The notes beneath the pieces are model-generated. The model was not told the DNA's origin, did not search any database, and saw only the letters and a list, made by a program, of their open reading frames with translations. Made by a program: the position numbers and the translations under genes. This document shows positions 14,079 to 28,666 of a stretch of 64,000 nt of DNA, one piece after another; the first letter of the stretch is position 1; the number at the start of each line of letters is the position of its first letter. This DNA comes from Neohoeflea coraliihabitans (GTDB lineage: Bacteria; Pseudomonadota; Alphaproteobacteria; Rhizobiales; Rhizobiaceae): NCBI RefSeq assembly GCF_019334345.1, contig NZ_JAHWQX010000002.1, positions 620,001 through 684,000 of the forward strand, given 5' to 3'.

Positions 14079-14084
14079 CGTCAG

Positions 14085-15065
14085 TTAGGCCCGGTCGCGC
14101 TCGACTATGGCTTTCAGGCGGGCCCGGGTCTCGCCGTAAACGCCGCGTCTGAACAGCATGACGCACCCCATGAAAATGACCCCCACCACGAGCGAGATTG
14201 GCAGACCGCTGGTCGCAAGCATATGCTCCAGCGTCACAACGAAGGCCGATCCGATGATCGGCCCGACGAATGTGCCCATCCCGCCAATGAGGGTCATGAG
14301 GACGACTTCACCCGACAGATGCCAAGACACATTGGACAGTGAGGCGAGCTGAAAGGCGATCACCTTGAGCGATCCCGCCAATCCGGAAAGCGTCGCCGAT
14401 AAAACGAAAGCGATCAGCTTGTAGCGGGCGACGTCGAGCCCGAGGGAAATTGCCCGCGGTTCGTTCTCACGGATCGCAGCGAGGATGTGCCCAAAAGGCG
14501 AATGAAGCGTTCGCCACAGGAAGAGAATTCCTGCAACGGTCGCACCCAGAACGACATAATACATTGCCGCTATGTCGTTGAGATCCACAATCCCCAGGAA
14601 CGTTCCGCGTGGAACGGCCTGGATCCCGTCTTCGCCGCCGGTGAAAGGCATCTGAACGGCAAGGAAATAGATCATCTGCGCGAGTGCAAGCGTGATCATG
14701 GCGAAGTAGATGCCATATCTGCGGATACCGATGAGGCCGAAAACGAGACCGAGCAGGCCGGCAAATGCCGTGCCCAGAAGGACCGCGACTTCGAATGGCA
14801 TCTCCCAGACCTTTGCAGCATGGGCAGTAACATATGCGGCGCCACCGAAGAACGCGGCATGCCCCAGGGACAAAAGACCCGCGTAGCCAAGCACGAGGTT
14901 CAGGGCCGATGCGAATAATATGAAGCAAAGAATGTTTATCAGGAACAGCGGGTAGACGAGATGGGGCGCGAGCAAGAGCGCAACAGCAATCGCCACCGCC
15001 GCGAACCCTGCTATCCAGCGTCTCTCGACAGTTGCCACAACCACGTTTTGAAGGAGAGTAGACAC
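14085..15065 (-). CDS. livM: Branched-chain amino acid-type ABC transporter permease
   Basis: A 326-residue polytopic permease of the LivM family, with GYAGLLSLGHAAFFGGAAY and the EAA-type loop IRENEPRAISLGLDVARYK typical of this subunit. Inner membrane. I start it at the GTG at 15065, 10 bases after a GGAAGG ribosome site lying in the end of livH; a TTG at 15071 is the alternative. The frame remains open far upstream inside livH, which is not coding. It is the second permease of the importer and the third gene of the leftward livG-livF-livH-livM run. Liv-type systems in catabolic islands often carry aromatic or short carboxylic acids rather than amino acids. Confidence 0.92.
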   Translation of the reverse strand: MSTLLQNVVVATVERRWIAGFAAVAIAVALLLAPHLVYPLFLINILCFILFASALNLVLGYAGLLSLGHAAFFGGAAYVTAHAAKVWEMPFEVAVLLGTAFAGLLGLVFGLIGIRRYGIYFAMITLALAQMIYFLAVQMPFTGGEDGIQAVPRGTFLGIVDLNDIAAMYYVVLGATVAGILFLWRTLHSPFGHILAAIRENEPRAISLGLDVARYKLIAFVLSATLSGLAGSLKVIAFQLASLSNVSWHLSGEVVLMTLIGGMGTFVGPIIGSAFVVTLEHMLATSGLPISLVVGVIFMGCVMLFRRGVYGETRARLKAIVERDRA

Positions 15066-15067
15066 GA

Positions 15068-15955
15068 TCAATTTTCCTTCCCGAAGAGGCCGGATGGACG
15101 GAGAAGGAGCACAAGCACCATCACGAGGAACACCACGATGGTCGATGCGGACGGGTAGAACACTTTCGTGAGTCCTTCTATGACGCCGAGACCCAGACCG
15201 GTCAGTATCGCGCCGCCGATCGAGCCAAGCCCGCCGATGACCACGACAGCAAAGACGATGATGATCAGGTTGGACCCCATGCCCGGACTGACCTGATAAA
15301 TCGGCGCGGCGAGGACGCCCGCGAAACCCGCGAGCCCGACGCAAAAGCCATAGGTCAGCGTGAGCATGAGTGGTACATTTATGCCGAACGCGGTGACCAG
15401 GGAGGGATTTTCGGTTGCCGCGCGTAGCCAGGCGCCGAGCTTTGTCTTCTCGATCACCAGCCAGACGGCAACACAGACGGTGACGGCTGCCACGATAACC
15501 CAGGCGCGGTAGATCGGCAGGATCATGAAGCCGAGCTTGAAGACGCCTGTGAGCTCCTGCGGGACGGGATAAGGCTTGCCTGCCGCGCCGAAGATGTAGC
15601 GAAATAGCCCTTCCAGAGCGAGTGCGAGCCCGAAAGTAAACAGCAGACTGTAAAGGTGATCGATCCGGTAGAGATGCCGCAGGAAAAGACGTTCGATGAC
15701 TATTCCGAACGCCCCGACGACAAGGGGGACAACGACAAGCGCCGCCCAGTAGTTGAGCCCCAGTTGCGACAGGCAGAGCCACGTCACGAATGCGCCCATC
15801 ATGTACAACGCGCCATGGGCAAAGTTGATGATGTTGAGCATCCCGAAAATGATCGCCAGCCCCAGGCTTAACACCGCATAGAAAGAGCCGTTGATCAGGC
15901 CCAACAGAATTTGGCCGAGCAGCACCACGACCGGAACGCCGAATATCTCAGGCAT
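15068..15955 (-). CDS. livH: Branched-chain amino acid-type ABC transporter permease
   Basis: A 295-residue polytopic permease of the LivH family with IIFGMLNIINFAHGALYMMG near the N-terminus and the cytoplasmic loop ATENPSLVTAFGINV. A strong GGGAGGG ribosome site precedes the ATG at 15955. Its stop (15068-15070) is immediately next to the livM start, implying translational coupling. It forms the transmembrane channel with LivM, energised by LivG and LivF, and fed by the periplasmic binding protein encoded divergently at 17.7 kb. Confidence 0.93.
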   Translation of the reverse strand: MPEIFGVPVVVLLGQILLGLINGSFYAVLSLGLAIIFGMLNIINFAHGALYMMGAFVTWLCLSQLGLNYWAALVVVPLVVGAFGIVIERLFLRHLYRIDHLYSLLFTFGLALALEGLFRYIFGAAGKPYPVPQELTGVFKLGFMILPIYRAWVIVAAVTVCVAVWLVIEKTKLGAWLRAATENPSLVTAFGINVPLMLTLTYGFCVGLAGFAGVLAAPIYQVSPGMGSNLIIIVFAVVVIGGLGSIGGAILTGLGLGVIEGLTKVFYPSASTIVVFLVMVLVLLLRPSGLFGKEN

Positions 15956-15966
15956 TCTTCCCTCCC

Positions 15967-16677
15967 CTAAACGCCGAGATAAGCGTTGATCCGCGCCATG
16001 TCTGAAAGAAGCGCTTCGTTACTGAATTCGTCGACGATCCGGCCTTGTTCCATCACATAGTGCCGATCGGCGCTGGCCGTGGCGAACTGGATATTCTGTT
16101 CGACCAGAATGATCGTCAGACCCAGATTTTTCAGTTCTCCGAGCACACGAGCAATATCTTCAACGATCACCGGCGCGAGGCCCTCGGTTGGCTCATCGAG
16201 CAGAATGAAGTCGGCCCCGGTTCTCAGGATTCGCGCGATCGCGAGCATCTGCTGTTCGCCGCCTGAGAGCCTGGTGCCGACTGTCGAGTCGCGCCCTTTC
16301 AGATTCGGGAACAATTCGTAGATGTGTTCGATGCTCATTCCACCGGCCTTGACGACCGGCGGGAGGACCAGGTTTTCGGCGACATTTAGCGAAGAGAAGA
16401 TTCCGCGCTCTTCCGGGACATAGCCCAGTCCCAGTCGGGCGACGCGATGGGCCGGCGTGGACATCAGGTCGTGACCATCGAAAACCAGCTTGCCTTTGCG
16501 TTGTCTTACGACGCCGGCAAGCGTGCGCATCATGGTGGTCTTTCCAGCGCCGTTGCGCCCGAGCAAGGTGACGATCTCGCCCTTGCTGACCTTCATCGTT
16601 GCGCCGTGAAGTATGTGGCTTTCGTCGTACCAGCTGTGCAGATTCTCGACCTCAAGGCGCGTTGCATCCTCAATCAT
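15967..16677 (-). CDS. livF: ABC transporter ATP-binding protein, LivF type
   Basis: A 236-residue ABC ATPase. Walker A GRNGAGKTT, signature LSGGEQQ, Walker B with LLDEPTEGLAP, and the short C-terminus ending NAYLGV typical of LivF. I prefer the ATG at 16677, which has GGAGG five bases upstream, over the ATG at 16689 four codons earlier. The start overlaps the end of livG by 8 bases. It powers the LivHM permease with LivG. Confidence 0.93.
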   Translation of the reverse strand: MIEDATRLEVENLHSWYDESHILHGATMKVSKGEIVTLLGRNGAGKTTMMRTLAGVVRQRKGKLVFDGHDLMSTPAHRVARLGLGYVPEERGIFSSLNVAENLVLPPVVKAGGMSIEHIYELFPNLKGRDSTVGTRLSGGEQQMLAIARILRTGADFILLDEPTEGLAPVIVEDIARVLGELKNLGLTIILVEQNIQFATASADRHYVMEQGRIVDEFSNEALLSDMARINAYLGV

Positions 16678-17416
16678 GAGAGCCTCCAATATAGGCCTGC
16701 TGAACCTCGCGATCGGACGAAATCTCTGCGTAGCTTCCCTCGGCGATGACCTCGCCGCGGCGCAGGACCGTGATGCGGTCGGATATGTCGGCGACTACCG
16801 AGAGATTGTGTTCCACCATGACGATCGTCGTCTGCTCGCCGACCCGCCTGATAAGCTTGGACGTGCGATCGATGTCTTCCTGGCCCATCCCGGCCATCGG
16901 TTCATCGAGAAGAATGACCTGCGGGCGCATCGCCAGAGTCGTAGCCAGTTCGAGGGCGCGTTTGCGACCATAGGGCAGTTCGACGGCAAGGCGCCGGGAA
17001 TAGTCCGCCAGACCCACTTCGGTGAGCAAGGCCATGATTTCCGCATCGTGGCGGGAAAGGGCGCTGTCGGATCGCCAGAAGCTGAACGTTTCCCGATCTT
17101 TCGACTGCAAGGCGATCCTGATGTTCTCATGGACTGACAGGTGCGGGAACACAGACGAAATCTGGAATGAGCGGACAAGTCCCTTGCGCGCCACGGAGGC
17201 CGCCGGGACGTTGCTGATGTCTTCACCCTTGAACCTGATTGTCCCTCTGCTGGGCGAGAGAAACCGCGTCAGCAGGTTGAACAGGGTGCTTTTACCGGCG
17301 CCATTCGGCCCGATCAGCGCATGAAGTGATCCGGCACTGACCGTGAAGTCCACATTGTTGACCGCCACGAAGCCATTGAACTCGCGAGACAGGCCTCGTG
17401 TCTCAAGTATCGGCAT
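16670..17416 (-). CDS. livG: ABC transporter ATP-binding protein, LivG type
   Basis: A 248-residue ABC ATPase with Walker A GPNGAGKST, the LivG-type RSFQISSVFPHLSVHENI segment, and a Walker B region reading LLDEPMAGMGQED. The canonical LSGG signature is degenerate: the stretch reads ELPYGRKRALELA, as in many LivG proteins of aromatic-acid importers. The start at 17416 follows an AGGAGGAGG stretch; the frame is open for 28 more codons upstream without similarity. First gene of the leftward transport run, transcribed away from livK. Confidence 0.91.
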   Translation of the reverse strand: MPILETRGLSREFNGFVAVNNVDFTVSAGSLHALIGPNGAGKSTLFNLLTRFLSPSRGTIRFKGEDISNVPAASVARKGLVRSFQISSVFPHLSVHENIRIALQSKDRETFSFWRSDSALSRHDAEIMALLTEVGLADYSRRLAVELPYGRKRALELATTLAMRPQVILLDEPMAGMGQEDIDRTSKLIRRVGEQTTIVMVEHNLSVVADISDRITVLRRGEVIAEGSYAEISSDREVQQAYIGGSHD

Positions 17417-17698
17417 CACCGTCTTCGTCCTCCTCCTGCCGTCCCAAAGGCGCTCTCCAGCCGGCGCATACGCAAACGAACGTTTGATCCGGCGCCTCAT
17501 ATTCGCTTTGGGGCTTGACTCAGAAAACCAGATTAAGTCTATTAGTGCAAGTTAAAAGATGGCAGTCGCAAAAACTAGTGCGAATAGGAGGCTCCATTTT
17601 TTAGCTCAGAATGGAGGGTATCCGCAGGTTTTTATCGGACACTCAGTCTATTAGAGCAATCTTGAATGTCGGCGTTAGGACTGACATGGGAGGAAACG
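17417..17698. promoter_or_regulatory. Divergent control region between livGFHM and livK operon
   Basis: A 282-base non-coding region between two divergently transcribed units, markedly more AT-rich in its middle (17520-17660) than the flanking genes. It carries a near-perfect direct repeat (listed separately) and a third partial copy. Both operons must start here. It is the natural place for the neighbouring HxlR-type protein to act, though that link is inferred. Confidence 0.6.
17536..17659. repeat. Direct repeat AGTCTATTAG(T/A)GCAA, candidate operators
   Basis: The 15-base sequence at 17536-17550 recurs at 17645-17659 with a single mismatch, start to start 109 bases apart. A looser match, ACTAGTGCGA, lies between them at 17574-17583. 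The second copy is 39 bases before the livK start. One copy is placed for each divergent transcription unit, as expected for paired operators. Confidence 0.55.
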
Positions 17699-18910
17699 AT
17701 GATCATGAAGAAGATTCTGAGCGCAGGCATTGCCGCGCTGATGTGTTCAACCACCGCTGGAATGGCGCTAGCTGACGATGGACAGGTGAAGATCGGCGTG
17801 CTGACCGACATGAGCGGTCAGTTCAGTCACGAGTCCGGCAAAGGCGCCGTCACGGCGATCGAGATGGCGGTCGAGGACTTCGGTGGTGAAGTGCTTGGCA
17901 AGCCGATCGAGGTTGTCGTGGCCGACCACCAGAACAAGCCAGAGATCGCGGCATCCACGGCACAGGAGTGGTATGAAAATTCGGGTGTCACCCTGATCGG
18001 CAATCTGATCAATTCCGGCATTGCTTTGTCCGTCGCGCAGATTGCGGCCGAGAAGGACGGCATTGCCATCGTCACCGGGTCCGGCTCGTCCAAGCTGTCC
18101 GGTGCCGGATGCACGCCGAACTCAATCCACTATTCCTATGACACCTATGCGTTGGCGAACGGCACGGCCAACCAGCTGGTCAGTCAAGGCATGAAGGACT
18201 GGTATTTCCTGACGGCTGACTACGCCTTCGGTCATGCCCTGGAAGCCGATGCCTCCGCTATAGTCGAAAAGGCCGGCGGTACGGTCGTCGGCAATGCGCT
18301 TTATCCAATCGAGACATCCGACCATTCCGCATACATGCTTCAGGCCCAGGCGTCCCCGGCGCAGGTAGTCGCGATCGCCGGATCGGGAACGACCTTCATC
18401 AACGCCGTCAAGTCAGCGCGTGAATTCGGCCTGGCCGATACGGGCAAGCTCACGGCCGGTTTGCTCGTCTGGCTGACGGACGTCAAAGCGCTCGGCCTTG
18501 ATGTTGCCCAGGGCATGATCCTGACAAACGGGTTCTACTGGGACCGCGACGACGAAACCCGTGCCTTTGCGGAGCGGTTCAAGGAGCGCATGGGCGTCAT
18601 GCCGCATATGGGCGACGCGGGCGACTACTCCTCGACGATGCATTATCTGAAAGCTGTCGAGGCGACCGGTACGACGGATGCGAAGGCCGTGATGGCCAAA
18701 ATGCGGGAAATGCCTATCGACGACTTCTTCGCGCAGGGCGGCGAGATCCGTGAGGACGGTCGCATGGTGCATGACATGTATGTTTACCAGGTAAAGACTC
18801 CGGAAGAGTCCACCGGCGAATGGGATGTCTACAAGCTGGTTGAAACGATCCCGGGCGACAAGGCTTTTCGCCCGCTCTCAGAAAGTGAGTGCCCGCTCGT
18901 CAAGCAGTAA
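17699..18910 (+). CDS. Periplasmic substrate-binding protein of the Liv-type ABC importer
   Basis: A 403-residue type I periplasmic binding protein. Signal peptide at the N-terminus (MIMKKILSAGIAALMC.. to an AMA-like site near residue 25: GMALA followed by DDGQ). The mature part begins VKIGVLTDMSGQFSH, with SGSGSSKLSGAGC and YSYDTYALANGTA segments of the LivK-like family used by aromatic-acid and other organic-acid importers. The start at 17699 follows GGGAGGAAA; an ATG two codons later would fit as well. It is the first gene of the rightward operon and captures the substrate for LivHMGF. Ligand not predictable from sequence alone. Confidence 0.92.
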   Translation: MIMKKILSAGIAALMCSTTAGMALADDGQVKIGVLTDMSGQFSHESGKGAVTAIEMAVEDFGGEVLGKPIEVVVADHQNKPEIAASTAQEWYENSGVTLIGNLINSGIALSVAQIAAEKDGIAIVTGSGSSKLSGAGCTPNSIHYSYDTYALANGTANQLVSQGMKDWYFLTADYAFGHALEADASAIVEKAGGTVVGNALYPIETSDHSAYMLQAQASPAQVVAIAGSGTTFINAVKSAREFGLADTGKLTAGLLVWLTDVKALGLDVAQGMILTNGFYWDRDDETRAFAERFKERMGVMPHMGDAGDYSSTMHYLKAVEATGTTDAKAVMAKMREMPIDDFFAQGGEIREDGRMVHDMYVYQVKTPEESTGEWDVYKLVETIPGDKAFRPLSESECPLVKQ

Positions 18911-18987
18911 ATCGCTTCGAGCATCCTCCCAGACCGGGGCGGGTTCGCCCGCTCCGGAACCTTTCCCTTCGTTGATTTGGTGGTGCC

Positions 18988-19449
18988 ATGAATTTCAAGG
19001 ATTCGGTGACAATTCCGTGCGACCGGGCGACGGTCTGGTCGGCCCTGAACGATCCCGGGGTCTTGCGCCAATGCATTCCAGGCTGTGAAGAGCTGGAACA
19101 GCAGACGGCAGATCACATGACCGCGAAAGTGTCGCTGAAGATCGGGCCGATCAAGGCGCGCTTCACCGGCGCGGTTGATCTCACCGATATCAAACCGCCC
19201 GAGAGTTACGTTCTCTCAGGTGAAGGCAAGGGCGGCATTGCCGGCTTTGCGAAGGGGTCGGCGCATGTCCGACTTGAGGAAACGGGTCCGCTCGAAACCG
19301 TTCTGCACTACGAGGCGGCAGCCGATGTCGGCGGCAAGGTCGCGCAGCTCGGATCCCGCCTGCTCGATTCCACGGCGAAAAAGCTGGCGCGACAGTTCTT
19401 TGACGATTTCCAGGCTGTCGTCACCGCTTCGAAAGCTGAACCCCAATGA
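18988..19449 (+). CDS. CoxG-like SRPBCC protein
   Basis: A 153-residue protein of the CoxG/SRPBCC lipid-binding-like fold (PCDRATVWSALNDPGVLRQCIPGCE, then KIGPIKARFTGAV and GKGGIAGFAKGSAHV). CoxG in CO-oxidisers helps attach the molybdenum enzyme to the membrane, and relatives accompany many non-CO molybdenum hydroxylases. It lacks a long C-terminal hydrophobic tail. Its stop overlaps the crotonase start by 4 bases. Likely an accessory of the hydroxylase encoded downstream. Confidence 0.88.
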   Translation: MNFKDSVTIPCDRATVWSALNDPGVLRQCIPGCEELEQQTADHMTAKVSLKIGPIKARFTGAVDLTDIKPPESYVLSGEGKGGIAGFAKGSAHVRLEETGPLETVLHYEAAADVGGKVAQLGSRLLDSTAKKLARQFFDDFQAVVTASKAEPQ

Positions 19450-20213
19450 ACGATATTGCAATCAGTACCAATGACGGAATCGCGACGGTGACTATCAATC
19501 GGCCGGCCCAGCGTAATTCCGTGTCCTATGCGATGTGGAACGCCTTCGGCGATATCTTTGCCGAACTGTCCGCTGATCGCGACGTGCGAGCGATCATACT
19601 GACCGGCGCCGGTTCTGATTTTTCCGCTGGAGCGGACATAGCGGAATTTGCGTCGGTGCGCGACGACCTCGGCCAGTCCCGCGCCTATGAGGTCGCTGTC
19701 GATTACGGATGTGCCGGGATTACCCATGCCAGCAAGCCGGTGATCGCGGTCAATCTCGGATACACTCTCGGTGGCGGCGCACATCTGGCAATGTCGGCCG
19801 ATTTCCGATTTGCGCATACCAAGGCGATTTTCGGCATTCCTGCCGCGCGGCTTTCGATCGTTTACGGCGTGCAAGCGACACGGAAACTCCTGGGCCTGGT
19901 CGGGCTGACCAACGCCAAACGCATTCTCTATTCCGCCGAACGGTTCGGCGCAGAGGAAGCCCTTGCGATGGGGTTTGTCGACAAGGTGAGCGACGACCCG
20001 ATGGCCGATGCAATCGCTTTCGCAAGATCTCTCTCGGGCAATGCACCATTGTCGATGGGAGGCGCGAAATACATCCTCAACGGAATTTCGCAGGGAAGCT
20101 TCGACCCTGGTCACGCCCAATCGCTGATAGATCAAGCCTCGACAAGTGACGATTATCGCGAGGGCCGAGACGCCTTTGCGGAAAAACGCGCTCCAAAGTT
20201 CAAGGCGAGTTGA
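19446..20213 (+). CDS. Enoyl-CoA hydratase/isomerase-family (crotonase) protein, atypical active site
   Basis: A 255-residue crotonase-fold protein. Oxyanion-hole elements are present (SAGADIAEF near residue 60 and LGYTLGGGAHLAM at 104-116). The two glutamates of true enoyl-CoA hydratases are both replaced: the GGGxE position is His113, and the FGxPE position is Ala133. A plain hydratase reaction is therefore unlikely; hydrolase, isomerase or ring-opening chemistry on a CoA ester fits better. It is placed between the CoxG-like gene (4-base overlap) and the FAD subunit of the hydroxylase, so it probably acts on the hydroxylase product. Confidence 0.85.
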   Translation: MNDIAISTNDGIATVTINRPAQRNSVSYAMWNAFGDIFAELSADRDVRAIILTGAGSDFSAGADIAEFASVRDDLGQSRAYEVAVDYGCAGITHASKPVIAVNLGYTLGGGAHLAMSADFRFAHTKAIFGIPAARLSIVYGVQATRKLLGLVGLTNAKRILYSAERFGAEEALAMGFVDKVSDDPMADAIAFARSLSGNAPLSMGGAKYILNGISQGSFDPGHAQSLIDQASTSDDYREGRDAFAEKRAPKFKAS

Positions 20214-20214
20214 G

Positions 20215-21075
20215 ATGAAGCCCGCTGCCTTCGAATTTTGCCGCCCCTCGACGTTGGAGGAAGCATTGGCCGCGCTTCAGCATGACGACGCCAAGATTCT
20301 CGCCGGCGGGCAGAGCCTCGTGCCGATGATGAACTTCAGGCTGGTGCGGCCCGAGCGGCTGGTCGACATCAACAACCTGTCCGATCTTTGCGATATTCGC
20401 GATGAGGGAGATGCAATCCGGATCGGCGCTCTGGTGCGCCATGCACAGGCCGCGGCCAGCACGGAGCTTTGTGGCGCCTTCCCGATTGTCACGGAGGCCA
20501 TGGCCCATGTGGCCCATGTTGCCATCCGCAATCGCGGTACGATCGGAGGTAGCCTGGCTCACGCGGACCCGTCGGCCGAATGGCCCCTGCTCATCACCTT
20601 GCTGGACGGCGAGATCGAGATCGCCGGAAGCGACGGCACCAGAATCGTCGGCGCCGAAGAATTTTTCTTCGCGCCATTGGTGACGGCGATCGAAGAAACC
20701 GAGATCCTCGTTTCGATAAAGCTTCAGAAACCGACGGCAGGAACAGGCATGGCGTTCACTGAGGTCGCTCAGCGGGCTGGCGATTTCGCTGTCGTGGCTG
20801 CCGCGGCGACTGTGCACACGAAGAACGGATTGATCACCCGCGCAAGATTGGCGCTTGGCGGTGTGGGCGACTTTCCCCTCCGCATGAAGGACGTCGAAGA
20901 AAAGCTCGAAGGCATGCCACCGGACGCGATCGACGAGGCGATTCGCGGCTGCGCGGATGTGCTCGAGCCCAATGACGACATGCATGCGTCGTCGCACTAT
21001 CGCAGATCGCTTGTGCCGACCCTTGCGTCCCGCGTTCTCAAACAGGCGGCGATCCGAGCCGCAGGCGTGACATGA
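20215..21075 (+). CDS. Molybdenum hydroxylase FAD-binding (medium) subunit, CoxM-like
   Basis: A 286-residue FAD-binding subunit of the xanthine dehydrogenase/CO dehydrogenase family. It has the FAD motifs AGGQSLVPMMNFR (about 33-45) and TIGGSLAHADPSAEW (about 107-121), and the C-terminal CO_deh_flav_C domain. The ATG at 20215 lies one base after the crotonase stop. It carries electrons from the 2Fe-2S subunit to the final acceptor. Its stop overlaps the small-subunit start by 4 bases. Confidence 0.92.
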   Translation: MKPAAFEFCRPSTLEEALAALQHDDAKILAGGQSLVPMMNFRLVRPERLVDINNLSDLCDIRDEGDAIRIGALVRHAQAAASTELCGAFPIVTEAMAHVAHVAIRNRGTIGGSLAHADPSAEWPLLITLLDGEIEIAGSDGTRIVGAEEFFFAPLVTAIEETEILVSIKLQKPTAGTGMAFTEVAQRAGDFAVVAAAATVHTKNGLITRARLALGGVGDFPLRMKDVEEKLEGMPPDAIDEAIRGCADVLEPNDDMHASSHYRRSLVPTLASRVLKQAAIRAAGVT

Positions 21076-21557
21076 CAAACGAGACAAACATCACTCTGAC
21101 CCTGAATGGCGAGAAAGTCAGTGCGAAAGCGGAACCTCGGATGCTGGCCTCCGACTTCATACGCGATGTGCTGTTCATGTCCGGCACCCATGTTGGCTGT
21201 GAACACGGCGTCTGCGGGGCATGCACGATAAGGTTCAATGGCAAGACGGCCCGCTCATGCCTGCTTTTCGCAGCGCAACTGGATGGGGCGAATGTGGAAA
21301 CTGTCGAGAGCCTTGGCACGGCGATCGACATGCATCGCATCCAGAAGGCGTTTCGCAAGCACCACGCGCTTCAGTGCGGCTTTTGCACTCCAGGCTTTCT
21401 GATGACGGTCTCGGAGATCCTCGAAACCTTGCCGCTGTCCACCGATGACGAGATACGCGACGCCTTGTCCGGAAATTTGTGTCGCTGCACCGGCTACGAG
21501 CACATCGTTCGGGCCGTGCGAGAACTTGTCGACGAGCGTGATGGAGTCCCGGCATGA
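21072..21557 (+). CDS. Molybdenum hydroxylase 2Fe-2S (small) subunit, CoxS-like
   Basis: A 161-residue iron-sulphur subunit with all eight cluster ligands. Plant-ferredoxin-type cluster: Cys43, 48, 51 and 63 (CEHGVCGAC...C). Second cluster in the helical domain: Cys102, 105, 137, 139 (CGFC...CRC). It passes electrons from the Mo centre to FAD. Overlaps its neighbours by 4 bases on both sides. The next gene is not the large subunit, as would be usual, but a lactonase-like hydrolase. Confidence 0.94.
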   Translation: MTNETNITLTLNGEKVSAKAEPRMLASDFIRDVLFMSGTHVGCEHGVCGACTIRFNGKTARSCLLFAAQLDGANVETVESLGTAIDMHRIQKAFRKHHALQCGFCTPGFLMTVSEILETLPLSTDDEIRDALSGNLCRCTGYEHIVRAVRELVDERDGVPA

Positions 21558-22315
21558 AAATGCATATTCTCGATGGTGGCCGGTTGCGGATGCGCAAACG
21601 CATCTATGTACCCGAAGCCGACAAGTCTGAAGCGATCGAACTGCCAGTCATCGCCGTCCTGTTTGCCCATGAAACGGGCTACGTTCTCTACGACACCGGC
21701 TGTCATCCGAGCGTTTCGGACGATGCCGAGGCGCGATGGGGGAAACTCGCACAGGTGATGACGCCTATCGGCGGACACTCCGCAAATGTTATCGACGCGC
21801 TTGCGGAACTCGGCCTATCGCCCGATGACATCGACGTGGTCGTCAATTCCCATTTCCATCCCGATCACTGCGGCTGCAACGAATTCTTCCGCAAGGCCCG
21901 CTTCATCTGCCATGAGGCGGAGCTCGCATCAGCGAAGTCTGACGGCGCCGAGATGCAAGGTTATCTGCGCGTCGAGTGGGACCACCCGATGCCGATGCAG
22001 GCCGTCGGCGAAGGGCACGATGTCCTCGGTGACGGGCGACTCGTCACCGTTGCATTGCCGGGTCACACTCCTGGCCTGATGGGGCTGCTCGCGAAGCTCG
22101 ACAGCACCGGCGATGTGCTGCTGGTCTCCGATGCGGTGAGCCTGCGCCGCAATCTCGACAATGACGAGATACCCAGAAATGCGGTCGATGGCGATGCGCT
22201 GCTGAAATCCTACGCAAAGATCCGGCGGTACGAAGCGGGCGGCGCAATGATCATCTGCGGCCACGACGATGCCCAATGGCAGACACTGCGCAAGGGGAGC
22301 GATGGATATGAATGA
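21554..22315 (+). CDS. Metallo-beta-lactamase-fold lactonase, AHL-lactonase (AttM/AiiB)-like
   Basis: A 253-residue MBL hydrolase. The dinuclear zinc ligands are complete: H100xH102xD104H105, His171 (PGHTPG), Asp193 and His237 (CGHDD). Spacing between the last three (22 and 44 residues) equals that of the AHL lactonase AiiA, and the N-terminal RMRKRIYVPEADKSEAIELP strand resembles that group. The Tyr that follows the Asp in AiiA is Ser196 here. Members open lactone rings, including acyl-homoserine lactones and gamma-butyrolactones. Wedged between the small and large hydroxylase subunits with overlapping ends (4 and 8 bases), it more likely hydrolyses a lactone intermediate than a quorum signal; the latter remains possible. 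Confidence 0.87.
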   Translation: MKMHILDGGRLRMRKRIYVPEADKSEAIELPVIAVLFAHETGYVLYDTGCHPSVSDDAEARWGKLAQVMTPIGGHSANVIDALAELGLSPDDIDVVVNSHFHPDHCGCNEFFRKARFICHEAELASAKSDGAEMQGYLRVEWDHPMPMQAVGEGHDVLGDGRLVTVALPGHTPGLMGLLAKLDSTGDVLLVSDAVSLRRNLDNDEIPRNAVDGDALLKSYAKIRRYEAGGAMIICGHDDAQWQTLRKGSDGYE

Positions 22316-24716
22316 TGTCTCATCGCAGCGCGGTGTGGATTCAATCCCGTCAAAAATCAGCCGGCCCAAATATATCGGCGAACCGGTTCAGAGACTTGAG
22401 GATCCGCGCCTGCTGACCGGAGCCGGTCGGTTCACCTCAGACATCCGTCTCGAACGCATGGTGCATCTCGCCTTTGTCCGCTCCGACCAGGCTCATGCGA
22501 AAATCTCCGAGATCGATTTCGGCGATGCGCTGGAAATGCCCGGGGTTCTCGCGATCTACACTGCAGGGGACTTCACGGACATTCCGGACATATCGGCCCC
22601 ATCGCGCATGAAGAATTATCACGCGACGCACTGCCCGGTCCTTGCCCGGGACGTTGTCCGCTATGTTGGCGAGCCGGTGGCCGTCGTCGTCGCGACGGAC
22701 CGCTACCTGGCCGAGGATGCGGCGACCTCGATCGTGGTCGAATACGAGCCGCTCGGCGCGTCATCGAATGTCGATGGCGCGCTTGCAGCCGGTGCGGTGC
22801 AGCTGCATGACGATGTTCCCGGCAACCTCGTACTCGAGCGCGTCTTCGCCACCGGTGAAGCCCCGGAACAAATCGCCGCTGCTTCTCATGTCGTCGAAGG
22901 CCGCTTTCGCCTGAAGCGCAAATCCCCTCTCGCGATGGAAAACAGAGCCTACGTCGTCGACTATGATCGCGGCCGGGACGCCCTGACGCTGTATGGCTCG
23001 ACACAGATTCCCGGCGTCGTCCGTGACGAGCTTTCCCGGCTGCTTGGCATGCCGGGGAACAGGATCCGTGTCGTCGCCCCGGATGTGGGTGGCGGCTTCG
23101 GCGGCAAGGGCTCGATTTACCCCGAAGAAATTCTCGTTGTCGCCATCGCGCGCAGGCTGGCAAGACCTGTCAAGTATGTCAGCGATCGCCTCGAAGATCT
23201 TACATCCACCAGCCAGGGCTTCGACGAAGTCGTCAAAGCGCGGCTCGCATTCGACGACGACGGAACGTTCATCGCCCTGGAAGCCGAGGTGATCGGCGAC
23301 ATCGGCGCTTACTCCATCTACCCGTGGACTGCCGCACTCGAACCGGTTCAGGTCGCGAGTTTCCTGCCCGGTCCATACCGCACACCCCATTATTGGGGCC
23401 GCGTTCGCGCGGTCTGCACGCCCAAGCCTCCGACCGGCCCATATCGTGGTGTCGGTCGCCCGATGGCCGTGTTTGCGCTCGAACGCCTCGTCGACAAAGC
23501 CGCTGCCCATCTTGGGATGGATCGGGCCGAAATCAGGCGTCGAAACCTCGTGCGCCCCGAGGAGTTTCCGCATCGGATCGGGTCGGGGATCATCTGGAAC
23601 CGGTCCGGTTTCATGGAGTGCCTGGAAGCCGCTGTCGAAACGATCGACTATGCCGGTTTCAAGAAGCGACAGGAGGCGGCCCGAAAGGAAGGGCGCTGGA
23701 TTGGGCAGGGCATCGGCACCTATGCGGAATTGACAGGGATCGGATCGCGTATCGCGGTCGCGCCCGGCATGCCGATCAACACCGGCAGCGAAACGGCCAC
23801 GGTGCGGATCGATGCGACAGGGGCTGTCGTCGCGATGTTCGCCACTGCATCCCACGGTCAAAGCCTGGAAACCACATTGGCGCAAATCGTGGCTGAAGAA
23901 CTGGGGGTCCGTCCCGAAGACGTGCAGATCATGCAAGGTGACACGGCCGTTGCTGTGCACGGCACCGGCACCTATGCAAGCCGCAGCGCGGTGATTGGTG
24001 GTGGCGCCGCGATCAAGTCCACTCGGTCCCTGCTGACCAAGGTCAAACGCGTCGCGGGACGGCTGTTCGATGTTGACCCCGACCGCGTTGAAACAGGCGA
24101 CGGTGAGATCTTCGTACCCGGCACCAACCATCGGATTCGGTTTGCGGACTTAGCCCGTGCTGTCTATTCGGACATGGCGACGTTACCGCTCGATGCGCGC
24201 GAAACACTCGAGTCGCAGGAAAGTTTTGACCCTTATCTGGGCACGACTACGTCCTCCACGCATATCGCGGAGGTCGAAATCGACCCGGAAACGCTCGCCA
24301 TACGGCTGACCCGTTTCGTCGTGGCCGAAGACTGCGGCAAGATGATCAACCCGCAGGTCGTCGACGGCCAGGTCCACGGCGGTGTGGCACAGGGCGTCGG
24401 CGTCGCATTGCTGGAAGAGCTGCAATATGATGAGACGGGCCAATTGCTGTCCGCAAGTCTTGCCGACTACCTGATCCCGACGTCGGCCGAAGTTCCGCAT
24501 ATCGAAGTCATCCACCTCGAAACCGAACTGCCGGACAATCCCGGCGGCTTCCGTGGAATGGGCGAAGGTGGGACGATCGGCGCACCGGCGGCCATCGCAA
24601 ATGCCGTCGCCGATGCACTCGCACATCTCGATCTGGATATCACCGAATTACCGATAACACCCAGCAAGCTTCATCGGCTGATCGTCGACAAGCGGGCTAC
24701 GAAAGATATGGAGTAA
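22308..24716 (+). CDS. Molybdenum hydroxylase large (Mo-cofactor) subunit, not CO dehydrogenase
   Basis: An 802-residue xanthine-dehydrogenase-family catalytic subunit. The active-site loop is PYRGVGR at 378-384; the Cys of true CO dehydrogenase (AYRCSFR) is absent, so CO oxidation is unlikely. The catalytic Glu753 lies in GMGEGGTIG. MoCo-binding segments GGGFGGKGS and GQSLETT are present. The ATG at 22308 is preferred to 22302 because of its spacing to AAGGGGAGC. It forms a heterohexamer-type enzyme with the two subunits encoded before the lactonase and would hydroxylate an aldehyde, N- or O-heteroaromatic, or CoA-ester substrate using water. No cofactor-maturation genes (coxD/E/F or xdhC) are in the block. 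Confidence 0.92.
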   Translation: MNDVSSQRGVDSIPSKISRPKYIGEPVQRLEDPRLLTGAGRFTSDIRLERMVHLAFVRSDQAHAKISEIDFGDALEMPGVLAIYTAGDFTDIPDISAPSRMKNYHATHCPVLARDVVRYVGEPVAVVVATDRYLAEDAATSIVVEYEPLGASSNVDGALAAGAVQLHDDVPGNLVLERVFATGEAPEQIAAASHVVEGRFRLKRKSPLAMENRAYVVDYDRGRDALTLYGSTQIPGVVRDELSRLLGMPGNRIRVVAPDVGGGFGGKGSIYPEEILVVAIARRLARPVKYVSDRLEDLTSTSQGFDEVVKARLAFDDDGTFIALEAEVIGDIGAYSIYPWTAALEPVQVASFLPGPYRTPHYWGRVRAVCTPKPPTGPYRGVGRPMAVFALERLVDKAAAHLGMDRAEIRRRNLVRPEEFPHRIGSGIIWNRSGFMECLEAAVETIDYAGFKKRQEAARKEGRWIGQGIGTYAELTGIGSRIAVAPGMPINTGSETATVRIDATGAVVAMFATASHGQSLETTLAQIVAEELGVRPEDVQIMQGDTAVAVHGTGTYASRSAVIGGGAAIKSTRSLLTKVKRVAGRLFDVDPDRVETGDGEIFVPGTNHRIRFADLARAVYSDMATLPLDARETLESQESFDPYLGTTTSSTHIAEVEIDPETLAIRLTRFVVAEDCGKMINPQVVDGQVHGGVAQGVGVALLEELQYDETGQLLSASLADYLIPTSAEVPHIEVIHLETELPDNPGGFRGMGEGGTIGAPAAIANAVADALAHLDLDITELPITPSKLHRLIVDKRATKDME

Positions 24717-24720
24717 ACAG

Positions 24721-25476
24721 ATGCAATTTGGACTGAACGGAAAAGTCGCTCTCGTGACCGGCGGCGGCCGTGATACTGGCGCTGAAATCTGCAAGCTTCT
24801 GGCCGCCGAAGGCGCGACGATAGCCGTCAACTACCGAAAATCGGCGGATGAGGCCGCCGCTGTCGTCGATGACATCACCGCATCGGGCGGGACCGCGAAA
24901 TCATTTCAGGCCGACATCAGCGATTACGAGCAGGTGAAGTCAATGGTTGATGCGATCGTCAGCGATTTCGGACGCGTCGACATCCTCGTCAACAACGCGG
25001 GTTACGTGAAATACCAGCGCTTTGTCGAGAGCACACCAGAAGATTGGAAGGCGCAAATCGATACCTGCCTTTATGGCGCGATCCACTGCTGCCACGCCGT
25101 TGCGCCGCACATGATCGCTCAGAACACCGGCCGGATCATCAGTCTGATCGGCGACAGTTCCAGGATAGGCGAGGCAAATCTCGCAATGGCCGCTGCCGCG
25201 CGCGCCGGGACCGTGGCGCTGGGCAAGTCGCTCGCCCGCGAACTCGGCCGTGCCAATGTCTGCGTCAACGCCGTCTCGCTGGGACTGGTCCAGACCGCAC
25301 ACTCGGATGCGGATTTTCTTGCCAAGAACATGGACAAGATCGTCAAGGCCTATCCGCTCCGCCGGATTGGCACGCCCGATGACGTGGCTCCGCTCGTCGC
25401 TTTCCTGGCGTCGGACCAGGCCTCCTGGATCACCGGTCAGGTGATCAGCGCGAACGGCGGCTTCTCGATGGTCTGA
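24721..25476 (+). CDS. SDR-fold protein with a lost catalytic tetrad
   Basis: A 251-residue short-chain dehydrogenase-fold protein. The Rossmann part looks intact (TGGGRDTG at 13-20, NNAG at 91-94). By alignment to BadH-like SDRs, all four catalytic positions differ: Asn to Cys116, Ser to Gly144, Tyr to Ala157 and Lys to Arg161 (MAAAARAGTVALGKSLARELG region, around residues 156-176). The reading frame is clean and the gene sits in the middle of the operon, 4 bases after the large subunit, so it is probably functional but not as a standard oxidoreductase. Roles to consider: a non-redox enzyme, or a binding/scaffold subunit. Confidence 0.85.
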   Translation: MQFGLNGKVALVTGGGRDTGAEICKLLAAEGATIAVNYRKSADEAAAVVDDITASGGTAKSFQADISDYEQVKSMVDAIVSDFGRVDILVNNAGYVKYQRFVESTPEDWKAQIDTCLYGAIHCCHAVAPHMIAQNTGRIISLIGDSSRIGEANLAMAAAARAGTVALGKSLARELGRANVCVNAVSLGLVQTAHSDADFLAKNMDKIVKAYPLRRIGTPDDVAPLVAFLASDQASWITGQVISANGGFSMV

Positions 25477-25500
25477 TGAGCGGGTAACGGGAGGCATAAG

Positions 25501-27045
25501 ATGATCAGACTGGATCTCATCGCGCCCTTGGCGGAATTGTTGCGGCGGCAATCCGCGGACCATCCTGACAAGATTGCGTTCGAAGACAAGACACGCAGCA
25601 TAACCTACCGGGACCTCGCGAATGAGGTGAATACCCTTGCCTCGAACCTGATCGCCCGCGGCTTACCACCCGGCGGATCGGTCGGTATCTGGTTACCGAA
25701 CTCGGTGGATTGGGTTGTTGCGACGCTCGCTGCCATTCGTGCAGGCGGCGTCGCCGTTCCGATCGCCTTTGACGCAAAACAGGCAGAGATGGACTACCGG
25801 GTGGAAGATGCCGGCATCCGGATCATCGTAAGTCGCATCGAAAAGCGCGAAGCGATCGCAACGTCGGGCAAGATTGACCCATCTGCCGTGATTTTGACCG
25901 ACGACGCGGATTCAGAAAACGGTTTCAAGTCCCTGTGTCCACGCACTGCCAGCGAGATCGCCCTGAAGGACGACGATATCGATGACGTATCAATGATCGT
26001 CTATACGTCGGGCACCACGGGGTCGCCCAAAGGGGTGATGCTGACGACACGATCGATGCTCTGGGTCAATGCCGCCTGCTGGGCCCCGATCTTCGGTATG
26101 GGACCTGACGATACGATCTTGTCACCGCTGCCGCTGTTCCACTCCTACGCGCTGAATTTTTGCGTCCTGTCGATCGTCGCCAATGGCGCCACCGAGTATG
26201 TGATGGAGCGGTTTTCCACGCATGAAGCGATGGATCTGCTTGGCTCCGGGCGTTTTACCAAGATGCCCGGCGTTCCGACAATGTTCCACTATCTCATGCT
26301 GGCGGCCAAGGAAGCCGGGACCAATCCATTCTCGTCGGTTAGCCGTTGCGTGTCGGCGGGCGCGATCATGCCCGCCGCCCTCAACAACGCGTTCGAGGAG
26401 CGTTTCGGGGTCGAACTGCTCGACGGCTACGGCATTACCGAAACCTCCACCATGGTGACGATGAACTGGCCGGGACAGGCCCGCATCGCAGGATCATGCG
26501 GCCTTCCACTGCCCGGTCTTGCAGTCCGTATCATTGATCCGGCTACTGGGAAGGATGTGCCCCAGGGAGACGAAGGCGAGCTGGTCGTCCGCGGCCCGAA
26601 TGTCATGAAGGGCTACCATAACAAACCCAACGAAACGGCGTCGGCTCTCAAGAACGGCTGGTACCACACAGGTGACCTGGCCCGGGCGGATGCAAACAGC
26701 TTCCTGACCATTACGGGGCGCCTGAAGGAATTGATTATCCGGGGTGGGCAAAACATTTCTCCGGCCGAAGTCGAAGAAACCATCGTGGTCATGGACGGTG
26801 TGCGCGATTGCGCCGTGGTCGGAGTCTCGCATGACACGCTCGGCGAAGTTCCGGTGGCGTTTATTGTCGCCGAGGAAACGGCGCCGGATATCGACAGCAT
26901 CAAGGCGTTCTGCAGCGAACGCCTGTCATCCTACAAGATCCCACATGATCTCGTGATTATCGAAACCATTCCGCGCACGGGGTCGGGAAAAATCATTCGG
27001 TTTCAGCTGCGCGAGCACTATGAGAACGCAGGTCAGGGCAGGTGA
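25501..27045 (+). CDS. Acyl-CoA synthetase (AMP-forming)
   Basis: A 514-residue class I adenylate-forming ligase. P-loop YTSGTTGSPKGVM near 171-183, the GYGITETSTM A5-type motif, TGDLARAD and the C-terminal catalytic Lys in RTGSGKIIR. It activates a carboxylic acid to its CoA thioester using ATP. 24 bases separate it from the SDR gene. In this operon it probably primes the imported acid for hydroxylation or ring-opening as a CoA ester. Substrate class (aromatic, furanic or aliphatic) cannot be read reliably from sequence. Confidence 0.9.
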   Translation: MIRLDLIAPLAELLRRQSADHPDKIAFEDKTRSITYRDLANEVNTLASNLIARGLPPGGSVGIWLPNSVDWVVATLAAIRAGGVAVPIAFDAKQAEMDYRVEDAGIRIIVSRIEKREAIATSGKIDPSAVILTDDADSENGFKSLCPRTASEIALKDDDIDDVSMIVYTSGTTGSPKGVMLTTRSMLWVNAACWAPIFGMGPDDTILSPLPLFHSYALNFCVLSIVANGATEYVMERFSTHEAMDLLGSGRFTKMPGVPTMFHYLMLAAKEAGTNPFSSVSRCVSAGAIMPAALNNAFEERFGVELLDGYGITETSTMVTMNWPGQARIAGSCGLPLPGLAVRIIDPATGKDVPQGDEGELVVRGPNVMKGYHNKPNETASALKNGWYHTGDLARADANSFLTITGRLKELIIRGGQNISPAEVEETIVVMDGVRDCAVVGVSHDTLGEVPVAFIVAEETAPDIDSIKAFCSERLSSYKIPHDLVIIETIPRTGSGKIIRFQLREHYENAGQGR

Positions 27046-27053
27046 GCACAGTC

Positions 27054-28214
27054 ATGAATCCATTTGTATTCAACACAACCAAGTCACTCGTTTTCCGTCC
27101 GGGAGCGGCGGCGAAACTGGCCTCAACGGCAGGCGACCTCCTCGGCAGGGCATCTCTGTTCGTAACAGATCCGGGCTTGCGCAAACTCGGTCTATGCGAT
27201 CCCGCCATCGCCTCGTTTGAAGCGGCGGGGATCGCTGTCACCCTATTTGATAGTGTCGAGGCCGATCCCAGCCTTGCAACGCTCATGGCAGCGGTCGAAG
27301 CAGGGAGAAATGGCGCTGTTACCAGCGTGGTCGGATTTGGTGGAGGCTCCTCGCTGGATGTGGCCAAGCTTTCCGCGCTCCTGCTTGGCTCAGAAGAGGA
27401 TCTCGATGAAGTCTGGGGTGTCGGCAACGCGAAAGGCCCTCGCCTGCCGCTCATCCTGGTGCCGACGACGGCCGGCACGGGATCGGAGGTCACTCCGATC
27501 TCGATCATCACCGTTGGCGAGGAGGAAAAGCGGGGCGTGTCCTCGGCTGTCATCCTTCCCGATCTCGCGGTACTGGATGCCAATTTGACCCTGGGCCTGC
27601 CGTCGGCGATCACGGCCGCGACCGGTGTCGACGCGATGGTGCACGCGATCGAGGCTTACGCTTCAAAGAGTGCCAACAACAATCCCATGTCCCGGCTTCT
27701 GGCGCGCGAAGCACTTCGTCTGCTGGGCGCGAATATCGAGACAGCGGTACTCGACGGCGGCAATGTCGAAGCGCGCGGCGCAATGCTGCTCGGATCCATG
27801 CTCGCCGGCCAGGCTTTCGCCAATTCACCCGTCGCCGCCGTCCATGCGCTTGCCTATCCGATTGGCGGGACGTTCCATGTCCCGCACGGTCTCTCCAATG
27901 CGCTGGTCCTGCCGCATGTGCTCCGTTTCAACGCACCGGACGCAGCTTCCCTCTACGCCGAGATTGCCCACGATGCTTTCCCGCACCTGGAACGCGAAAC
28001 CGGCGCACAGTCGCTCTGTGCCGCTTTTATCGAAGAACTGGCGATCCTGCCAAAGAAGCTCGGCATGCAGACGCGGCTGCGCGACGTGGATATCCCCGAG
28101 ACGGCGCTTCCCAAGCTGGCTTCGCACGCGATGCTTCAGCAGCGCTTGTTGATCAACAATCCACGCGAAGTATCCGAACAGGACGCCCTTTCGATCTACA
28201 AGGCAGCCTGGTAA
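27054..28214 (+). CDS. Iron-containing (group III) alcohol dehydrogenase
   Basis: A 386-residue Fe-ADH. NAD-binding GGGSSLDVAK, and the four metal-ligand positions in TGVDAMVHAIEAY (Asp and His) and AVHALAYPIGGTFHVPHG (two His). The ATG at 27054 has an unusually good AGGTGA ribosome site 8 bases upstream, formed by the end of the ligase gene; a GTG at 27042 is the alternative. It would interconvert an alcohol and aldehyde (or a hydroxyacid and semialdehyde) feeding the pathway. Its TAA overlaps the thioesterase ATG by one base. Confidence 0.92.
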   Translation: MNPFVFNTTKSLVFRPGAAAKLASTAGDLLGRASLFVTDPGLRKLGLCDPAIASFEAAGIAVTLFDSVEADPSLATLMAAVEAGRNGAVTSVVGFGGGSSLDVAKLSALLLGSEEDLDEVWGVGNAKGPRLPLILVPTTAGTGSEVTPISIITVGEEEKRGVSSAVILPDLAVLDANLTLGLPSAITAATGVDAMVHAIEAYASKSANNNPMSRLLAREALRLLGANIETAVLDGGNVEARGAMLLGSMLAGQAFANSPVAAVHALAYPIGGTFHVPHGLSNALVLPHVLRFNAPDAASLYAEIAHDAFPHLERETGAQSLCAAFIEELAILPKKLGMQTRLRDVDIPETALPKLASHAMLQQRLLINNPREVSEQDALSIYKAAW

Positions 28215-28666
28215 TGACCGACCGCGCCGCCCCCTCAAAGCGTAGTGACTATGCGGACTTCTGCATCATCCAGACCCGCTGGATGGACAATGACGTCTAC
28301 GGCCATATGAACAATGTTGTTCACTATTCACTCTTCGATACGGCAGTAAACGGCTGGCTGATCAGACGGGGATTGCTTGACCCCCGGTCCAGCGAGACCT
28401 TCGGTCTGGTCGTTGAGACCGGCTGCAGATATTTTGCGGAAATGGCGTTTCCTGACGAAGTGACCGCCGGCATCCGCGTATCAAAGCTTGGCACCAGTTC
28501 GGTCCGCTACGAGGTCGGACTTTTTCGAAATAACGAAGACAGCGCTTCGGCTGAAGGTTTTTTCGTTCACGTCTATGTCGATGCAAAGACAAGAAGGCCG
28601 ACTGCAGTTGATGAAACGCGGCGCGAGGCACTCCAAACCCTGATACTGCCCGGACATGGCATATGA
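28214..28666 (+). CDS. Acyl-CoA thioesterase, hot-dog (4HBT/YbgC-like) fold
   Basis: A 150-residue hot-dog protein with the 4HBT active-site segment MDNDVYGHMNNVVHYSLFD near 20-38; the Asp of NDVYGHMNN is the expected catalytic residue. It hydrolyses a CoA thioester. Last gene of the rightward operon, started at the stop codon of the dehydrogenase (TAATG). It may release the final product, or free CoA from dead-end intermediates. A hairpin about 215 bases downstream may end the transcript. Confidence 0.88.
   Translation: MTDRAAPSKRSDYADFCIIQTRWMDNDVYGHMNNVVHYSLFDTAVNGWLIRRGLLDPRSSETFGLVVETGCRYFAEMAFPDEVTAGIRVSKLGTSSVRYEVGLFRNNEDSASAEGFFVHVYVDAKTRRPTAVDETRREALQTLILPGHGI

Follow-up and report, generated by a model that had tools for sequence, protein, structure and literature searches.

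The 64,000-nucleotide stretch of the Neohoeflea coraliihabitans genome analyzed here (the window; contig NZ_JAHWQX010000002.1, positions 620,001 to 684,000) carries, at 17699-28666 of its + strand, an operon in which genes for an acyl-coenzyme A (CoA) ligase, a three-subunit molybdenum (Mo) hydroxylase, a crotonase and a lactonase-like hydrolase are joined to those for a thioesterase, an alcohol dehydrogenase and the binding protein of a Liv-type importer. A first-pass annotation of this DNA proposed a furoate-degrading variant of HmfABCDE that ends with the release of 2-oxoglutarate. Judged by its sequences, the operon is not HmfABCDE and should no longer be called a furoate operon. The pathway looks to leave through a C4 compound and not through 2-oxoglutarate, which is the best-supported biochemical statement that can be made for it, and we consider it somewhat more probable than not that the operon is distinct from Hmf and exits at C4.

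The operon comprises 11 genes, recognized from the list of open reading frames (ORFs) and from Pfam and NCBIfam scans. Most overlap by a few bases, and the spacing is otherwise at most 24 bases, with the exception of a 77-base gap after the binding-protein gene. In order, the genes encode:

17699..18910, + strand: Liv-type periplasmic substrate-binding protein (SBP; Peripla_BP_6, 347 bits; closest solved chain 3i09, 408 bits)
18988..19449, + strand: CoxG-like SRPBCC protein, a predicted Mo-enzyme accessory (Pfam COXG, 119 bits)
19446..20213, + strand: crotonase-fold enzyme lacking both hydratase glutamates, with Tyr at the methylmalonyl-CoA decarboxylase position (Pfam, alignment)
20218..21075, + strand: Mo hydroxylase FAD subunit, CoxM-like (Pfam)
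21072..21557, + strand: Mo hydroxylase 2Fe-2S subunit, CoxS-like (Pfam)
21554..22315, + strand: metallo-beta-lactamase-fold (MBL) lactonase-like hydrolase with an HxHxDH motif (NCBIfam, alignment)
22305..24716, + strand: Mo hydroxylase large subunit, CoxL-like, without a CoxG fusion (Pfam, solved-chain match, tree)
24721..25476, + strand: short-chain dehydrogenase/reductase (SDR)-fold protein lacking the catalytic Asn-Ser-Tyr-Lys tetrad (alignments)
25501..27045, + strand: AMP-forming acyl-CoA ligase (NCBIfam, solved-chain match, alignment)
27042..28214, + strand: Fe-alcohol dehydrogenase (Fe-ADH), predicted 4-hydroxybutyrate dehydrogenase (family scans, context; closest solved chain, 1,3-propanediol oxidoreductase)
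28214..28666, + strand: 4HBT-fold thioesterase, predicted 4-hydroxybutyryl-CoA thioesterase (Pfam, locus comparison)

These ORFs and family matches bear out the gene set named in the first-pass annotation, and the set or its core recurs at 27 further loci. The annotation did not list the CoxG-type gene, and four other Liv subunits and a regulator lie outside 17699-28666. The solved structures that match the binding protein, 3i09 and 3n0w, name no ligand.

The source genome (G000, 3.93 Mb; other G and L numbers denote compared genomes and loci) has a separate hmf-type operon that is likely its actual 2-furoate operon. One of its CoxL paralogues, at G000:C1:1092983-1095952, is a 990-residue CoxL-CoxG fusion, which is followed (L080:7042-19968) by a FAD subunit, a 2Fe-2S subunit, a ligase, an HmfE-like crotonase and a Liv importer; an AraC-like gene lies ahead of the fusion, and an alpha/beta hydrolase gene (named by eye) is in the same locus. 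This A-B-C-D-E gene order is not found in the window, where the order is coxG-ech-M-S-mbl-L-sdr-ligase. Relatives of the fusion occur in clusters with UbiD, UbiX, GMC and LysR genes on plasmids of Cupriavidus necator, Paraburkholderia aromaticivorans and Caballeronia, and with UbiD/UbiX and a Liv importer in Dinoroseobacter. We take UbiD and GMC to be the equivalents of HmfF and HmfH, respectively. Compared with the C. necator operon, the G000:C1 operon is 56% identical in A, 48% in B, 68% in C, 56% in D and 72% in E, with hmf references assigned by cluster architecture and not by comparison with the HMF14 sequence. This order of conservation approximates that published for a pair of hmf operons (E 80, C 77, A 64, D 61 and B 59; PMC6678421).

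The window proteins are distant from their Hmf counterparts, with identities of 34-35% for CoxL, 30-32% for the ligase, 30-32% for the crotonase, 38-41% for CoxM and 52-57% for CoxS. The window large subunit is an unfused protein of 803 residues, whereas the hmf loci examined encode CoxL-CoxG fusions of about 1000 residues. A maximum-likelihood tree was built from 58 large subunits, with HmfA trimmed to residues 1-800; it is midpoint-rooted and has several long branches. At the first fork drawn, it separates the 27 core large subunits, a single clade (100/100), from the four HmfA proteins, which form a clade of their own. The first-pass annotation named grouping with enzymes of a different known pathway as grounds for refutation, and this outcome was not observed either: the core groups with no characterized enzyme among those compared. 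We reject Hmf membership on the basis of the separate hmf-type operon, the low identity, the separate clades and the different crotonase active site described below. What survives from the earlier proposal is its logic of CoA ester, Mo hydroxylase, lactone, lactonase and thioesterase, which fits the genes, but not the assignment to furoate. Its remark that the Hmf route has no separate enzyme for opening the lactone agrees with a 2019 report in which lactone hydrolysis has no gene assigned (PMC6678421), but Table 2 of a 2025 report lists ‘hyd’, a putative 5-hydroxy-2-furoyl-CoA hydrolase (PMC12064950).

All locus counts given here refer to a comparison of 28 loci, window included, of which nine are plasmid loci. 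Genes below a per-gene identity threshold were scored as absent, as were genes past the ends of contigs or stretches (in L001, G185 and G580, and the liv genes of G621). The coxL gene is present in 28 of 28 loci, MBL in 27 (absent from G113), coxM and coxS in 27 (G580 starts at the edge of a contig), the thioesterase in 21 and Fe-ADH in 19, and the division into transcription units differs between loci. Under strict E-value limits, and with the source genome counted, orthologous clusters occur in 8 of 397 sampled genomes of the order and 8 of 394 of the family. Plasmid-borne clusters are found in Aminobacter, Agrobacterium, Rhizobium, Sinorhizobium and Bradyrhizobium elkanii. This conserved operon is probably a horizontally mobile catabolic unit for one imported carboxylic acid. 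The cluster is probably previously undescribed; none of the literature matches listed was recognized as describing it, though such a description may still exist. Little was learned from the loci with large subunits at 37-43% (L002-L005, L007-L015, L017-L026) or from those of Azospirillum and Embleya, and crotonase matches on pJP4 and Sphingobium CFD-1 came without a pathway hint. On a Rhizobium phaseoli plasmid (NZ_CP064932.1, 107841-108129), only short large-subunit pieces are present (11% of the query, 52% identity), which are possibly a decayed copy of the cluster.

Genes found with the core point to the C4 exit. Sixteen of the 19 loci having Fe-ADH also have a succinate-semialdehyde dehydrogenase (SSADH) at least 65% identical to that of Aminobacter, which exceeds the TIGR01780 cutoff (722 versus 646 bits). 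The source genome has two SSADH genes of 62% outside the window, and at G000:C1 a paralogous Fe-ADH (60%) directly adjoins an SSADH (62%). A similar pair (61% and 58%) is present in G204, and G020 has a 60% Fe-ADH elsewhere, with no SSADH match in the 11 kb covered. This pairing of Fe-ADH with SSADH, at other loci and among paralogues, supports the predicted 4-hydroxybutyrate dehydrogenase activity. At L083:8379-11012, outside the window, a second Fe-ADH adjoins an SSADH in a probable 4-hydroxybutyrate operon.

The core on B. elkanii plasmid pK07G carries another exit. This cluster has the crotonase, coxMSL, MBL, SDR, ligase, SBP, coxG and regulator genes; the compared stretch has no thioesterase, Fe-ADH or SSADH, and the whole plasmid has no Fe-ADH at an E-value of 1e-90. 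One of the cluster proteins, annotated as a member of the 4-hydroxyphenylacetate 3-hydroxylase superfamily, matches 4-hydroxybutyryl-CoA dehydratase/vinylacetyl-CoA isomerase (797 bits to 6vjr, 574 bits to AbfD 1u8v). The homology is full-length, and the CxxxC cysteine pair and the His/Cys positions, which we take to be FeS ligands, align. At an E-value of 1e-60, the dehydratase is absent from 18 of 20 core-bearing genomes or records, with the B. elkanii plasmid and G580 (37%, another contig) as exceptions. Three further B. elkanii plasmids have the same large-subunit match, the large subunit being the only protein compared there. Because 4-hydroxybutyryl-CoA is the simplest intermediate common both to thioesterase, Fe-ADH and SSADH and to the dehydratase, it is probably the compound shared by the two exits. 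The exit genes indicate 4-hydroxybutyrate and succinate semialdehyde, in place of the 2-oxoglutarate named in the first-pass annotation.

Two enzymes of known fold in this operon, the crotonase and the SDR, have unfamiliar active sites. The crotonase had been called atypical, and its active-site positions agree: both hydratase glutamates are replaced, one by His and the other by Ala/Ser, in 21 of 21 aligned rows (20 loci; G557 twice). In the same 21 rows, a Tyr aligns with the Tyr of ScpB, the methylmalonyl-CoA decarboxylase of Escherichia coli (GVPYN). Among the controls, PaaF and HmfE keep both glutamates, and the isomerase PaaG also lacks them. Decarboxylation by the crotonase is a lead, not a result. 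In the SDR-fold protein, the FabG positions N110, S138, Y151 and K155 are C/G/D, G, A/V/G/T and R, respectively, in every one of the 26 orthologues, no two of which are identical (two letters of the G185 row are undetermined), and the stretch G144-D-S-x-R-x-G-E151 is invariant. All four control SDRs, like FabG itself, keep N, S, Y and K, and alignment with solved FabG chains agrees on the loss of the tetrad in the window protein. Given this loss, the SDR-fold protein is probably not a dehydrogenase.

By its Ald_Xan_dh_C and two MoCoBD domains and its FAD and 2Fe-2S partners, the Mo hydroxylase belongs to the xanthine oxidase family, and its large subunit has a GEGG sequence near the C-terminus, the glutamate of which is presumably functional. 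In 25 of 28 loci, coxS and coxL flank the MBL gene; a script identified 24 of these, and G020 was counted by inspection because the script probably took the neighboring hmf subunit there. The exceptions are G364 (MBL apart from coxMSL), G113 (no MBL) and G580 (contig cut). The HxHxDH metal motif of the MBL is present in 27 of 27 rows (G364 counted twice), and its best model is AttM (131.6 bits, cutoff 390). When mean identity to the window is compared between five co-linear and 11 split clusters, the drop is steep for coxL (73 to 55), MBL (71 to 50), coxS (73 to 59), coxM (59 to 43) and coxG (68 to 50), intermediate for the crotonase (71 to 61), ligase (66 to 59) and thioesterase (70 to 64), and shallow for SDR (79 to 74), Fe-ADH (78 to 74), SBP (78 to 73) and livH (79 to 74). 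The coxG-coxMS-MBL-coxL cassette therefore seems to have its own history, and the MBL mostly moves and diverges with the Mo enzyme, as would be expected if it acts on that enzyme’s product.

Three candidate functions were rejected. For vitamin B6-type degradation, with which we take SDR, lactonase and SSADH to be shared, the pyridoxolactonase model scores 111.6 against a cutoff of 325, and a ring-cleaving gene is absent among the conserved genes. For the ligase as a malonyl-CoA synthetase, the closest solved relatives are such enzymes, but what we take to be the malonate-binding Arg position of MatB is Gly in 23 of 23 aligned ligases (DGYGITE). For plain beta-oxidation of an omega-hydroxy acid, thiolase and acyl-CoA dehydrogenase genes are missing from the conserved set, and the crotonase does not have the glutamates of a hydratase.

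In the scheme that we prefer, the ligase would form the CoA ester of the imported acid, CoxLMS would insert a water-derived oxygen next to the ring heteroatom to generate a lactone, and the lactonase-like MBL would open it. The glutamate-less crotonase would then remove carbon from the opened intermediate, preferably by decarboxylation of a 2-substituted malonyl-CoA to yield 4-hydroxybutyryl-CoA, while the SDR-fold protein would perform a non-redox step. Thioesterase, Fe-ADH and SSADH would take 4-hydroxybutyryl-CoA to succinate, and the alternative exit through the B. elkanii dehydratase would yield crotonyl-CoA. The hmf genes next to the core at three loci and the resemblance of the crotonase to a decarboxylase favor an oxygen-heterocycle carboxylate. 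We tentatively place the carboxyl group on C3, as in furan-3-carboxylate or a reduced relative, although we would not bet on it. The same caution applies to the complete proposal, a doubtful but specific one, of a plasmid-spread pathway for oxygen-heterocycle-3-carboxylates that runs through C2 hydroxylation, an alpha-acyl lactone, a substituted malonyl-CoA and decarboxylation, with a non-redox step by the tetrad-less SDR.

The three loci with hmf genes within about 10 kb of the core (L016, G204 and G020) are all of type B, by which we mean the six core loci without adjacent thioesterase, Fe-ADH and SSADH (G204, G020, G185, G036, G113 and L016). Of 20 core-bearing genomes or records, 7 have an hmfA gene, versus 15 of 297 genomes of the order. 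The hypergeometric probability of this association in the order sample is 4.5e-5 without the source genome and 0.003 with genera collapsed, where the test takes G113 and G226 as members of the sample, though they are absent from its hmfA listing. By a redox balance drawn up by hand, 4,5-dihydrofuran-3-carboxylate yields 4-hydroxybutyrate exactly through one Mo hydroxylation, one hydrolysis and one decarboxylation; 3-furoate yields succinate semialdehyde, and an extra reduction is needed to reach 4-hydroxybutyrate. At type-B loci L042:378-4854, L075:6033-8907 and L077:11672-15442, the neighborhood shares an HpaB-like monooxygenase and a DUF2848-like protein, with an amidase in two of the three and a small cupin-like protein in two of the three (names partly by eye), which suggests an upper pathway.

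A series of observations weighs against the preferred scheme. On the exit side, the 64-kb window has no SSADH, G226 has none of at least 65% in the stretches covered, and past the thioesterase of S. chiapasense (L049:884-973) there is only a 30-residue match (43%) to the SSADH N-terminus, perhaps a decayed gene. Sister plasmids of S. chiapasense keep a whole SSADH at this position. The Fe-ADH scores 223 against a cutoff of 500 with the NCBIfam 4-hydroxybutyrate dehydrogenase model, which is outscored by the ErcA, sulfoacetaldehyde reductase and lactaldehyde reductase models, and the solved structures closest to the Fe-ADH are of enzymes acting on 1,3-propanediol, methanol and lactaldehyde. Type-B loci have no Fe-ADH or SSADH beside the core, which may feed something else there, and G113 additionally lacks the lactonase, SDR and ligase. 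An intact dehydratase is present on one B. elkanii plasmid among those compared, and L016:14773-15144 holds only an N-terminal fragment (residues 7-130) directly after the ligase, which suggests that L016 once had the dehydratase exit. For the crotonase, the ScpB histidine (AGHD) is alanine in window-type proteins, and the best NCBIfam models are enoyl-CoA hydratases (245 bits, cutoff 291). The catalytic roles of the ScpB tyrosine and histidine are our assumption, and it is on that one tyrosine that the decarboxylase reading rests. Among solved structures, the large subunit matches quinoline 2-oxidoreductase best (582 bits). Finally, hmfA is absent from seven of seven other core genomes of the window’s family, and the furan link may thus reflect catabolic islands.

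Of the alternatives to the C3-carboxylate scheme, the one that survives best, though we rate it rather unlikely, makes the crotonase a hydrolase that cleaves a C-C bond of a beta-dicarbonyl, whether cyclic or linear, in which case the substrate would have at least six carbons. We take 6-oxocamphor hydrolase and BadI as the models for such a reaction. Replacement of both hydratase glutamates, one by an invariant histidine, is consistent with this possibility, as is BadH as the second-best NCBIfam model of the SDR, below cutoff. However, the aligned tyrosine agrees with ScpB, and a gene for the second acyl fragment is absent among the conserved genes.

Also unlikely is a Mo enzyme that oxidizes a lactol or an aldehyde, with the resulting lactone opened before the hydroxy acid is ligated to CoA. 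A study on deoxyribose oxidation in Pseudomonas simiae describes a Mo dehydrogenase, a lactonase and an SDR that act in that order (PMC6365646), and NCBIfam glyceraldehyde dehydrogenase models rank first or second for the three window subunits, below cutoff. Nevertheless, the window SDR lacks the classical catalytic residues, a beta-keto-acid cleavage enzyme was not recognized among the genes, and the P. simiae enzyme is described there as iorAB-like with a cytochrome (PMC6365646).

An N-heteroaromatic acid, hydroxylated beside the nitrogen to a lactam that the MBL would open, is improbable as the substrate. Quinoline 2-oxidoreductase as the best solved relative of the large subunit and an amidase near some type-B cores speak for it, but the conserved genes of type-A clusters include no amidase, deaminase or transaminase, and a nitrogen ring is not expected to yield 4-hydroxybutyryl-CoA. 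Least probable is an HmfABCDE variant that converts 2-furoate through furoyl-CoA, 5-hydroxylation, lactone opening and 2-oxoglutaryl-CoA to 2-oxoglutarate: the enzyme classes match, lactonase and thioesterase would supply steps, and hmf genes adjoin the core in those three loci, but the genome has its own hmf-type operon, A, D and E are 30-35% identical, the large subunits fall into separate clades, the crotonase active site differs from that of HmfE, and the exit genes are those for C4.

Divergent from the operon are four liv genes, and beyond them lies a regulator gene (13101-17500 overall). The features ahead of the operon are:

13101..14078, + strand: tandem-HxlR transcriptional regulator with two HxlR domains (Pfam HxlR, two stretches; orthologue in 24 of 28 loci)
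14085..15095, - strand, start approximate: LivM-like permease (ORF, family scans, locus comparison)
15068..15955, - strand: LivH-like permease (ORF, family scans)
15967..16689, - strand: LivF-like ATPase (ORF, family scans)
16670..17500, - strand, true start perhaps near 17413: LivG-like ATPase (ORF, family scans)
17536..17550, + strand: operator-like motif AGTCTATTAGTGCAA (15-nucleotide direct repeat; a similar motif lies ahead of relatives’ transcription units)
17645..17659, + strand: second copy of the operator-like motif (15-nucleotide direct repeat)

Both copies of this repeat lie between livG and the SBP gene, and sites are present in 17 related loci. With up to two mismatches to AGTCTAWTARTGCAA, 37 matches are found in 24 stretches (561,766 bases) versus 0.8 in mononucleotide shuffles, which overstate the significance because the pattern was derived from the same, often related, loci. 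In 34 of the 37 cases, the site is in the livG-SBP gap, in the coxG-coxM gap or ahead of the regulator; the other three lie within an sdr, in an Fe-ADH-livM gap and in a regulator-coxM gap. The search found no site in L061, L048, L016, L006, L037 or L038. A motif close to AGTCTAATAATGCAA is a candidate operator of the tandem-HxlR regulator and a candidate regulon marker.

If the scheme is true, the operon would add to the known CoA-dependent routes that break down cyclic acids with a molybdenum enzyme. Bacteria that nodulate roots or associate with plants carry the cluster on plasmids, and it may therefore reflect a plant compound for which they compete, and the exit modules exchanged around one intermediate would constitute a natural experiment. 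Operons with a Mo hydroxylase, a ligase and a crotonase should not be named furoate operons by default, as the source genome appears to have both kinds.

Several known systems share parts of this arrangement. The AttKLM/BlcABC gamma-butyrolactone pathway has in common with this cluster type a metallo-beta-lactamase-fold lactonase, Fe-ADH and SSADH, to which the window adds a ligase, a Mo hydroxylase, a crotonase and a thioesterase. AbfD is the enzyme carried by the B. elkanii copy of the cluster, where, in our reading, it provides the way out of a degradation pathway. The deoxyribose route of P. simiae likewise includes a Mo dehydrogenase, a lactonase and an SDR-fold protein, but there the SDR is an active dehydrogenase, the Mo enzyme is iorAB-like and the exit is different. 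HmfABCDE, of the Cupriavidus basilensis HMF14 type, shares with the window an acyl-CoA ligase, a three-subunit Mo hydroxylase, a crotonase and a lactone logic, whereas the window operon is distinguished by its unfused CoxL, its glutamate-less crotonase, its own lactonase, its tetrad-less SDR and its predicted C4 exit.

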